Positions 6,535 to 11,122 of a stretch of DNA of 33,469 nucleotides are shown here, one piece after another; positions within the stretch are counted from its first letter, which is position 1, and each line of letters begins with the position of its first letter. The notes under the pieces were generated by a model. That model ran no database searches and was not told the DNA's origin. It saw only the letters and a program-made list of their open reading frames with translations. This DNA comes from Candidatus Liptonbacteria bacterium (GTDB lineage Bacteria > Patescibacteriota > Minisyncoccia > UBA6257 > JACOXY01), in NCBI GenBank assembly GCA_016182095.1, contig JACOXY010000016.1, positions 1-33,469 of the forward strand. Direction: 5' to 3'. A program made the translations under genes and the position numbers.

Positions 6535-6609
6535 TGGCGGGGGCACTAGGATTTGAACCTAGAAGTCGGGATTTGGAGTCCCGCAGTTTGCCGTTGAGCT
6601 TATACCCCC
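6535..6609 (-). tRNA. tRNA-Trp(CCA)
   Basis: GGGGGTA...CGGGA-CTCCAAA-TCCCG...CTAGG-TTCAAAT-CCTAG-TGCCCCC-G-CCA; 3' CCA encoded. Confidence 0.9.
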
Positions 6610-7259
6610 TTATTAAAAAACGCTTTCCCAACAGCCAAAAGCTGTCGAGCTAAATCATTGGAATGATACCTGATATTGATACATCCGGGATAATTTTCGC
6701 GAATTCGTTTGCCAGTATTTTGCTTTATATAAGGTCTGATAAATTGACTCTTATTAATATGAGTCACTTTTGACCAAAAATCAATCTGCTTTTGTATGTG
6801 GTGATATTGGTGAAGATGTAAACAGGGGCGAAATTTTTTCTCGTCTAAAATAAAAGTTGATCTCAATAATTCTAAAAATTTACGAATCACATCAGGATCA
6901 GAATTGATAAATGATATGCCGCCTCTGGGATTTTTAATACCCTCGCACCAATACATAATTCCACACAATAGCGCATGGGCACCCAATATATCAATATTTT
7001 TTAAATTCATGAGAGCGTTTTGCAAATACCTCTTTTCTAATAAATCTGTTTTGCGCTTTTTATTTTCAGAAGATACCAGTTGCCCCTTCGTAATTTTTTT
7101 AAGAAGTCGCTCTCTCGCAACATCTGAAAGTTCAACATCTCTTAACCAGCCCGACAAATTACCCTTGGATACGCCAAATTTCGCGCTCAATTCATTTAAT
7201 GAATGGCCCTTCTTTCGATAAAGAACAACTTTTTCCTTGAATTCAACAGTATATGCCAT
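6600..7259 (-). CDS. HTH + 'YWxEG/FWSxxTxI' domain protein A (uncharacterised family, possibly degenerate LAGLIDADG-like)
   Basis: N-terminal HTH (LNELSAKFGVSKGNLSGWLRD), GIMYWCEGIK...FINSDPDVIRKFLELLRS...FWSKVTHINKSQF; stop codon lies inside the tRNA-Trp 5' end. Confidence 0.8.
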   Translation of the reverse strand: MAYTVEFKEKVVLYRKKGHSLNELSAKFGVSKGNLSGWLRDVELSDVARERLLKKITKGQLVSSENKKRKTDLLEKRYLQNALMNLKNIDILGAHALLCGIMYWCEGIKNPRGGISFINSDPDVIRKFLELLRSTFILDEKKFRPCLHLHQYHHIQKQIDFWSKVTHINKSQFIRPYIKQNTGKRIRENYPGCINIRYHSNDLARQLLAVGKAFFNKGV

Positions 7260-8762: not shown

Positions 8763-8794
8763 CTCTTTATCCCATACAAAATATGCCTTCTCGG

Positions 8795-8866
8795 AGCCGA
8801 TGGAGGGATTTGAACCCACAACCTACGCATTACAAATGCGTTGCTCTGCCATTGAGCTACATCGGC
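8795..8866 (-). tRNA. tRNA-Thr(TGT)
   Basis: GCCGATG...ACGCA-TTTGTAA-TGCGT...GTGGG-TTCAAAT-CCCTC-CATCGGC-T; CCA not encoded (CCG). Confidence 0.9.
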
Positions 8867-8872
8867 GGAACA

Positions 8873-9487
8873 TCAATGTGTTAACTTTATCCTATATTCT
8901 TCTATCCACGCAAGTATTTGCTTCAATAGCAATTTGTCACAATAACTAATAGCTAATGTCCCATAAATTGATTTATTCTTGTAAGTTCCTCCTTTGCCAC
9001 CGTGTACGAACGATTTATAAAAATTTGTTTTGGGTATTTTTGTAACCTTAGACCAAAATTCTAAAAGTTTCTCTTCATTAAGATCTGGATACATATGAAT
9101 AAGCGCTTTCATCCTTCTTTCAGAAATACCACAAATAGTTCTTAAAAATTTTAGGAAAACTTTTATCATTGCCGGATCGCTGTTCGCGAATTTTACGCTG
9201 TTATTGGTTTTGGAGCCCTCTCCCCAATACAACATTATACCCGCCACTTTAAGCCTTTCGTCGTTCCTGCTCAAGTGATTTTTTAATATAAATTGTTTCT
9301 TCCCAAATTTATTGGTATATAAAATATTAATTGCCTCACTAATGGATCTGCTTTTTATGCCAGCCTTATCCAACCAATATCTAACTCCTGATGGTCCCAT
9401 ACCCAAACGTTTGGCAATTTGATCCATTGAGAGATGTTCCCCAGTATACATCCCCACAATTAAGTCCTGTTTTATTTTATGTGACAT
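8873..9487 (-). CDS. HTH + 'YWxEG/FWSxxTxI' domain protein B
   Basis: MSHKIKQDLIVGMYTGEHLSMDQIAKRLGMGPSGVRYWLDKAGI...AGIMLYWGEGSK...FANSDPAMIKVFLKFLR...FWSKVTKIPKTNF; start set at 9487, 7 nt after TATAAT; stop 6 nt before tRNA-Thr. Confidence 0.8.
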   Translation of the reverse strand: MSHKIKQDLIVGMYTGEHLSMDQIAKRLGMGPSGVRYWLDKAGIKSRSISEAINILYTNKFGKKQFILKNHLSRNDERLKVAGIMLYWGEGSKTNNSVKFANSDPAMIKVFLKFLRTICGISERRMKALIHMYPDLNEEKLLEFWSKVTKIPKTNFYKSFVHGGKGGTYKNKSIYGTLAISYCDKLLLKQILAWIEEYRIKLTH

Positions 9488-9494
9488 TGTACTA

Positions 9495-9531
9495 ATTATA
9501 ACAAACCAGTTGTTAGATAACAACTGGTTTG
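9495..9531 (-). promoter_or_regulatory. -10 box (TATAAT 9495-9500) abutting a 14-bp-arm perfect palindrome (9502-9531)
   Basis: CAAACCAGTTGTTA-GA-TAACAACTGGTTTG followed on the minus strand by TATAAT and the ORF B start. Confidence 0.6.
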
Positions 9532-9540
9532 AGTTGTGGG

Positions 9541-9694
9541 ATGAGCCAATGGCCGGAAATTGAACAATATTCGCCTATCTAGCGAATATTTTGAAACCCA
9601 TCGGTTTCAATGCTTCCGCCACGGGGAAACTACCGTTTCCCCGACCCCCTTCCCGGTTCAAATCCGGCGCATGAGCCAATGGCCGGATTTGAAC
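9541..9694. repeat. direct repeat of tRNA-Thr(GGT) 3' end (9541-9565 and 9671-9694) enclosing hairpins
   Basis: atgagccaatggccggaaattgaac vs atgagccaatggccgga-tttgaac. Confidence 0.75.
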
Positions 9695-9943
9695 CGGCGA
9701 CCTACTCCTTCATTTGCACCTCCTTTTTATTAAACCTATTGAGAAGGATTAGACTGTATCTTTGTCCCTACAGGACACCCTTGTCAGTCGTTCGGGCTAA
9801 AACAGCTTGTGCTGATTCGCCACGGTCTCTGCCTAGTCTGGGCCTTTAACCGTTATTCGGGATTCACCAAAGCGTTGCCACTTTGGTGGGCATGAGTTTT
9901 TCGCTCTACCATGGAGTTGCTCTACCAGCTGAGCTACATTGGC
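9674..9943 (-). tRNA. tRNA-Thr(GGT) interrupted by a group I intron
   Basis: Exons GCCAATGTAGCTCAGCTGGTAGAGCAACTCCATGGT / AAGGAGTAGGTCGCCGGTTCAAATCCGGCCATTGGCT give a full cloverleaf; anticodon loop ATGGTAA. Confidence 0.88.
9711..9907 (-). other. group I intron (197 nt) in tRNA-Thr(GGT), inserted after U36
   Basis: 5' exon ends in T, intron ends in G; P1 GGT|A-GAG...CTC-A-TGCC with U.G at the splice site; P7 CAGACTAGG / AAAGATACAGTCT; P8 TGTCC-TGTA-GGGACA. Confidence 0.85.
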
Positions 9944-10196: not shown

Positions 10197-10814
10197 ATGT
10201 ATGTTATCAAAGATCATCAATTAAAGTTAGTAAAAGAATTGTATTATGATAAATTACTGCCGGCTTATGAAATTGCGAAAATACTTAGGGTGTCCGTTGA
10301 TGCGGTTTATGGTTTTATGAATCGCCATAATCTAAAAAGACGCACATTGGCAGAGAACAATAAAATACAATTTGCAAATAAAAAACCGTCTTTTAAACTT
10401 AAGGGCAATCTAAATGAGTACGAGAAAGAGTTGAAAGCTTCGGGAACGATGTTATATTGGGGTGAGGGCTTTCAATCAGAAAAGGCTATTGGTGTGGATT
10501 TTGCCAATTGTAAACCTGAGATGATAAAATTATTTCTTGAATTTTTAAGAAAAATTTGTGGAATAGATGAATCTAGATTGCGAGTCTATTTATACTGCTA
10601 TGCCAATCAGAACATAAATAATATTATTAACTTCTGGAGCGCTCTAACCAAAATTCCCAAAAGTCAGTTTACTAAGCCATACATAAGAACTGATTTTGAT
10701 ATCAAAAAAATAGATAAGATGAGATATGGCTTGATTCATATTAGATATCATGATAAAAAGTTGTTAAACTTAATACGAGGATGGATAAGTGAATACAGTG
10801 AAAAGTTTAGTTAA
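10197..10814 (+). CDS. HTH + 'YWxEG/FWSxxTxI' domain protein C
   Basis: LPAYEIAKILRVSVDAVYGFMNRHNLKRRT...GTMLYWGEGFQ...FANCKPEMIKLFLEFLRKICGID...FWSALTKIPKSQF; stop 4 nt before tRNA-Tyr. Confidence 0.8.
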   Translation: MYVIKDHQLKLVKELYYDKLLPAYEIAKILRVSVDAVYGFMNRHNLKRRTLAENNKIQFANKKPSFKLKGNLNEYEKELKASGTMLYWGEGFQSEKAIGVDFANCKPEMIKLFLEFLRKICGIDESRLRVYLYCYANQNINNIINFWSALTKIPKSQFTKPYIRTDFDIKKIDKMRYGLIHIRYHDKKLLNLIRGWISEYSEKFS

Positions 10815-10818
10815 AAAC

Positions 10819-11122
10819 GCGCAGGTGGCGGAGCGGCCAATCGCACGAGACTGTGTTAACGCAGCTCTTATAGGAAACTGTAAGATAAACTTTCCGGGAT
10901 AACGGTGAACCCTTCGACAAACTCACAGCAAATGCTCTGGTTAGTAAAGGTAATACCGTGGGAACCCTGCAAAAGCGGGGGCTCCGTAGAGACTAGATAC
11001 CGGAATACCTAAAGCCATTATGGCTATGGTAAAGATATAGTCCACACCTTAAGGAAACTTGGGGGTAAGTGAAATCTCGCGCCCAATGGGCTACGCAGGT
11101 TCGAATCCTGCCCTGCGCACCA
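10819..11122 (+). tRNA. tRNA-Tyr(GTA) interrupted by a group I intron
   Basis: GCGCAGG...GCGGAGCGGCCAATCGC-A-CGAGA-CTGT|AAA-TCTCG-long variable arm (GCCC-AAT-GGGC)-GCAGG-TTCGAAT-CCTGC-CCTGCGC-A-CCA; class II, matches bacterial tRNA-Tyr. Confidence 0.92.
10855..11071 (+). other. group I intron (217 nt) in tRNA-Tyr(GTA), between U35 and A36
   Basis: P1 CTGT/GCAG with U.G at splice site; GAGACTAGATACCGG ... AAAGATATAGTCC P7 elements; intron ends in G. Confidence 0.9.

Follow-up and report, generated by a model that had tools for sequence, protein, structure and literature searches.

A cluster of tRNA genes, two of them interrupted by introns and three of them adjoined by genes for related HTH proteins, lies in the 33,469-nt stretch of Candidatus Liptonbacteria contig JACOXY010000016.1 analyzed here (the window). 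At 10819-11122 of the forward strand is a tRNA-Tyr(GUA) gene that is interrupted between U35 and A36 (U35/A36), inside the anticodon, by a group I intron of 217 nt. The tRNA genes, introns and open reading frames discussed below are listed with their coordinates in the table.

Table. Features of the interrupted tRNA-Tyr gene and of the surrounding tRNA cluster (positions in the window)
Feature	Position	Strand	Basis or remark
tRNA-Trp(CCA), uninterrupted	6535-6609	-	
ORF A, 219 aa, paralogue, Trp subfamily	6600-7259	-	stop codon is nt 8-10 of tRNA-Trp
tRNA-Thr(UGU), uninterrupted	8793-8866	-	
ORF B, 216 aa, ORF C paralogue, Thr subfamily	8873-9523	-	ends just before tRNA-Thr(UGU)
tRNA-Thr(GGU), interrupted at U36/A37	9673-9943	-	ARAGORN intron mode; contiguous exons of relatives
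Group-I-like intron, second family, 197 nt	9711-9907	-	alignment of 12 members
ORF C, 205 aa, HTH and C-terminal domain, Tyr subfamily	10197-10814	+	stop 4 nt before tRNA-Tyr
tRNA-Tyr(GUA) 5' exon	10819-10854	+	ends C32-U33-G34-U35; ARAGORN on spliced sequence
Group I intron, 217 nt, ends in G	10855-11071	+	RF00028; family alignment with covariation
Internal guide sequence GCAG	10861-10864	+	invariant in ten aligned short introns (tRNA-Tyr, -Asn, -Asp)
P7 5' strand GACUA, guanosine-binding helix	10991-10995	+	invariant in ten introns
P7 3' strand UAGUC	11038-11042	+	invariant in ten introns
tRNA-Tyr 3' exon	11072-11122	+	variable arm, T arm, A73, encoded CCA

The tRNA-Tyr gene is not reported in the window by ARAGORN with default settings or by the Rfam tRNA model. 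Following removal of bases 10855-11071, an 87-nt class II tRNA with A73 and an encoded CCA remains, which ARAGORN identifies as tRNA-Tyr(gta). This agrees with an earlier note on this DNA, which had named tRNA-Tyr(GUA), class II after intron removal, as the host gene and had given its sequence and coordinates exactly. The same note placed the insertion at U35/A36, and intron-free relatives are contiguous at precisely this point: the two query segments 1-36 and 254-304 abut in the intact tRNA-Tyr genes of many genomes of the same order (for example, G057:C10:198181-198232 / 198233-198268), and the junction is therefore 10854/11072. When ARAGORN is run in intron mode, the unspliced gene is labelled tRNA-Ser(uga), because two split points satisfy the loop rules. 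This reading, a tRNA-Ser(UGA) with an intron at U33/U34 that would likewise end in G and leave a 7-base loop, is almost certainly wrong, as base 73 is the A typical of Tyr whereas tRNA-Ser has G73, the guide GCAG complements CUGU and not GACU, a separate tRNA-Ser(UGA) gene is present elsewhere in the genome and, decisively, the intact relatives with adjacent exons are tRNA-Tyr genes.

The intervening sequence is matched by the Rfam group I intron model RF00028 at 10845-11064 of the forward strand, over model positions 1-253 of 253, with a score of 49.1 bits and, for a search of 381 bases, an E-value of 1.1e-11. The match is strong by E-value and 0.9 bit under the curated gathering score of 50. 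In P1, the guide pairs with the exon bases CUGU, the pair at the 5' splice site being U-G; the 3' end of the intron reads GUG; and the longest internal reading frame is 35 aa, with no HNH ORF present. In an alignment of ten short introns of the same family, GCAGCU (the guide and its flank), GUAGAGACUA and GAUAUAGUCC are invariant, while compensatory double changes are found in 31 of 41 predicted pairs and back the P3-P8 and P4-P6 helices. As P7 is itself invariant, it contributes no covariation evidence, and P10 is short and uncertain. The earlier identification of a group I intron, with P1 formed by CTGT and GCAG, a terminal G, P7-type blocks and no ORF, is upheld in each of these particulars by the model match and the family alignment.

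Sixteen introns of this family were examined. All of them follow exon CUGU, end in G and reside in tRNA-Asn(GUU), tRNA-Asp(GUC) or tRNA-Tyr(GUA), and once ambiguous ARAGORN splits had been corrected the insertion site in all 16 was U35/N36 (hence the CUGU/N36 family). The corrected cases include ARAGORN calls of Thr(tgt) and His in L060, L064, L080, L085, L062 and L113, each of which was rejected in favor of a tRNA-Asn(GUU) split after CUGU. Among 380 genomes sampled across the phylum, the core pattern of the family occurs in 12, at 13 loci: three in tRNA-Tyr, seven in tRNA-Asn (one of these assigned from ARAGORN's split alone), two in tRNA-Asp and one without an assigned host. The tRNA-Tyr gene is interrupted at U35/A36 in four genomes, L098 included; L098, L275 and L279 each share the site of the window copy. 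At L098 (4900-5905), the HTH gene upstream of the interrupted tRNA-Tyr is broken.

Five of the 16 introns first examined contain a reading frame of about 90-114 aa that has an HNH-like motif, and one of the two frames scanned gave a weak match to Pfam HNH (E = 5e-4). In the tRNA-Asn introns of L062, L063, L064, L065 and L077, an HNH-type ORF precedes the internal guide sequence. We infer that the four shared bases, together with HNH homing in some members, explain how introns of one family came to occupy the same position in different tRNAs.

The host genome, an assembly of 893 kb in 23 contigs with a completeness of 97.5%, was inventoried for tRNAs with a tRNA-model search, and ARAGORN was run on the sequence surrounding the matches. 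At this completeness, which leaves some chance of a further copy in the missing 2.5%, neither method found a second tRNA-Tyr gene, the finding that the earlier note had named as the mark of a pseudogene, or a second tRNA-Thr(GGU) gene. With no further tRNA-Tyr gene detected, the cell would need splicing to read Tyr codons. It is quite improbable that the intron has lost its ability to splice and that the locus is a dead gene: the RF00028 score just below the gathering cut-off is compatible with this, but every family-invariant element of the core is intact, as is the spliced tRNA-Tyr sequence, and translation needs a tRNA-Tyr.

Group I introns are also found in the 16S and 23S rRNA genes of the host. 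The 23S rRNA gene (L055/L056, corresponding to G000:C18 and G000:C3) contains two group I intron matches, one with a LAGLIDADG-like frame beside it, and the 16S rRNA gene (L055/L056) contains one match and long inserts. A compact array of five tRNA genes, Ile(UAU), Glu, Thr, Arg and Leu (G000:C10:104306-104961), is atypical of the genome and is possibly of phage origin. No tRNA-Met, tRNA-Asp or tRNA-Ile(GAU) was recognized in the stretches of the host genome that were scanned, and further intron-split tRNAs may be present in it.

A second interrupted tRNA gene, tRNA-Thr(GGU), overlooked in the earlier note, carries its intron 0.9 kb from that of tRNA-Tyr, and its U36/A37 junction is confirmed by intron-free relatives. 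This intron is found in about 19 of 150 genomes of the order, and a 30-base signature of it in 12 of the 380 genomes of the phylum. In 12 aligned copies, double changes occur in 21 of 39 pairs, and the covariation score of the family, calculated with P7 placed one column off, is 0.523, compared with 0.149 ± 0.017 for shuffles. Helices P2, P4, P5, P6, P8 and P9 are present in group I order and most of them covary; the P7-type strands GACUG and CAGUC are invariant in all 12 copies, and P3, which would form the P3/P7 pseudoknot, has only three pairs and is nearly invariant. RF00028 matched none of the 12 (the window copy at E ≤ 10 and the 11 relatives at E ≤ 1), so the intron is classed as group-I-like only. 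In L279, where the genes are ordered Thr(UGU)-Tyr[intron]-Thr(GGU)[intron]-Trp, the two tRNA genes interrupted are those that are interrupted in the window.

The three HTH proteins of the cluster are encoded by ORFs A, B and C, and a fourth copy of the family in the host genome adjoins tRNA-Ile(UAU). A profile built from 61 relatives detected the family in 109 of the 380 Patescibacteria genomes sampled. When 90 members were chosen by profile score, regardless of tRNAs, 81 had a tRNA on the same strand whose first base fell in the interval from 40 nt upstream to 70 nt downstream of the stop codon, compared with 6 of 107 control ORFs from the same stretches (Fisher p = 4e-37). The commonest arrangement places the stop codon of the HTH gene at nt 8-10 of the tRNA; a few members lie on the other side of their tRNA or on the opposite strand. 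Subfamilies track tRNA isotype: on a tree of 150 family proteins, 17 tRNA-identity labels require 23 changes, compared with 85-97 in 200 shuffles. As the shuffling ignores relatedness, this result speaks to lasting linkage with the tRNA and not to mobility. In L217, L254, L258 and L269, family members adjoin tRNA-Phe(GAA) genes for which ARAGORN predicts introns of 208-270 nt.

The earlier note had drawn attention to HTH protein C, 4 nt upstream of the tRNA, in connection with the intron. The spacing is correct, but the connection does not hold: tRNA-Tyr genes with an HTH neighbor are mostly intron-free, which excludes the protein as the intron's partner. The note had not recognized that the family of this protein is linked to tRNA genes.

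Most members of the family have an HTH that is recognized by Pfam. Their C-terminal domain has no match in Pfam, NCBIfam, PHROGs or the sequences of the PDB, and among the Pfam matches listed for 61 members and the NCBIfam matches of four there is no LAGLIDADG family, only matches of HTH type. An AlphaFold2 model of ORF C (mean pLDDT 95.9) gave no significant match to the PDB with Foldseek, the weak ones being to OmpA-like domains. Its best viral structural match is a phage LAGLIDADG protein (E 2.5e-3, TM-score < 0.3), and several further weak viral matches are LAGLIDADG or endonuclease proteins. Five residues of ORF C (Y87, E90, G91, W147 and G178) do not vary across 61 sequences.

Two views of these proteins were weighed. 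According to the first, they serve the host as tRNA-specific regulators or processing factors, co-transcribed with the tRNA and controlling it or its splicing. The same-strand order with close spacing or overlap, the isotype specificity of the subfamilies and the single high-confidence fold predicted are all in line with such a role, yet we consider it unlikely for five reasons. First, presence of the gene within genus g290 is patchy: the family was found in G317, G356, G392 and G449 but not in G434, G442 or G508 (an empty-site comparison within the genus gave DNA similarity too low to align). Second, some members are on the strand opposite to their tRNA or 3' of it. Third, the copy in L098 is broken. 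Fourth, eight relatives encoded by large viral contigs (L288-L295, 129-497 kb) all lie among phage tRNA genes (8/8), within tRNA arrays. Fifth, the partner tRNAs are mostly intron-free. The first four of these observations suggest that the HTH genes are mobile. Like free-standing homing genes, ORFs A-C are found beside a conserved target and are patchy in their spread, and they are probably free-standing selfish genes of homing type; a putative homing-type nuclease is the best reading of their products. We put at about even odds the fuller proposal that ORFs A-C represent an undescribed selfish family of Patescibacteria and large phages, in which each subfamily would cleave one particular tRNA gene at its 5' edge and home there by means of a new C-terminal nuclease domain.

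The explanation that we favor for the locus as a whole, with a probability of roughly 93%, is a self-splicing group I intron of the CUGU/N36 family in a tRNA cluster that has been invaded by selfish elements. The intron would leave the tRNA-Tyr precursor by two guanosine-dependent transesterifications: the guide GCAG, paired with exon CUGU, would direct 5' cleavage to the bond after U35, the terminal G would define the 3' cut before A36, and ligation would restore the GUA anticodon. The family enters tRNAs that have the CUGU anticodon loop in common (Asn, Asp and Tyr) at U35/N36. Its ancestors or relatives probably spread by means of an intron-borne HNH endonuclease, which is absent here, by reverse splicing via the four shared bases, or by both. 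The cluster would also have been invaded by the tRNA-Thr(GGU) intron family and by the three free-standing HTH genes, probably of homing type and each tied to one tRNA gene. Whether the cluster is a recurrent target of selfish elements, counting the ORF A-C family and the two intron families, is a proposition that we regard as evenly balanced.

Bacterial group I introns in tRNA genes are known from the tRNA-Leu(UAA) and tRNA-fMet genes of cyanobacteria, tRNA-Ile(CAU) of Azoarcus and tRNA-Arg(CCU) of Agrobacterium (PMC8450103, PMC3984707). The introns of the CUGU/N36 family resemble these in their small size, their location in the anticodon loop, the 5' U-G pair, the terminal G and the general lack of an ORF. 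They differ in their hosts (tRNA-Tyr, -Asn and -Asp), in the U35/N36 site, in being found in Patescibacteria and in the HNH ORF of some relatives. Some tRNAs of circularised genomes, nearly all of them CPR, have been reported in a single sentence to contain group I introns (PMC8172020); the passages concerned name no tRNA, site or family. The group I introns of CPR rRNA genes have been studied well, and they and their LAGLIDADG enzymes were surveyed in PMC11270868, which does not mention tRNA. As group I introns of CPR have thus been reported in both rRNA and tRNA, the tRNA-Tyr intron by itself joins a known kind.

ORFs A-C are similar to phage homing genes of the T4 seg/mob type in that they are single genes beside conserved targets, patchy in distribution, found in the tRNA arrays of large phages and equipped with an N-terminal DNA-binding domain. 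In contrast to that type, they carry a C-terminal domain without a counterpart in Pfam, NCBIfam or PHROGs, each subfamily has a single tRNA isotype as its target, at the 5' edge, and the genes are common in bacterial chromosomes. No description of the CUGU/N36 family, the tRNA-Thr(GGU) family or the tRNA-linked protein family was found in the open-access literature; within the literature searched, the set of hosts and the site of the first, the second as a family missed by RF00028, and the third appear to be undescribed.

ARAGORN without intron mode misses both tRNA-Tyr and tRNA-Thr(GGU), and RF00028 misses the Thr intron, with the result that tRNAs of this sort will be counted as absent. In this minimal-genome bacterium, an essential and apparently single-copy tRNA would depend on a working ribozyme. 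The CUGU/N36 family offers a direct test of the shortest shared target that suffices for a group I intron to move between tRNAs, and the tRNA-linked proteins form a tractable lineage, with one tRNA gene per subfamily, that may hold a new nuclease domain.
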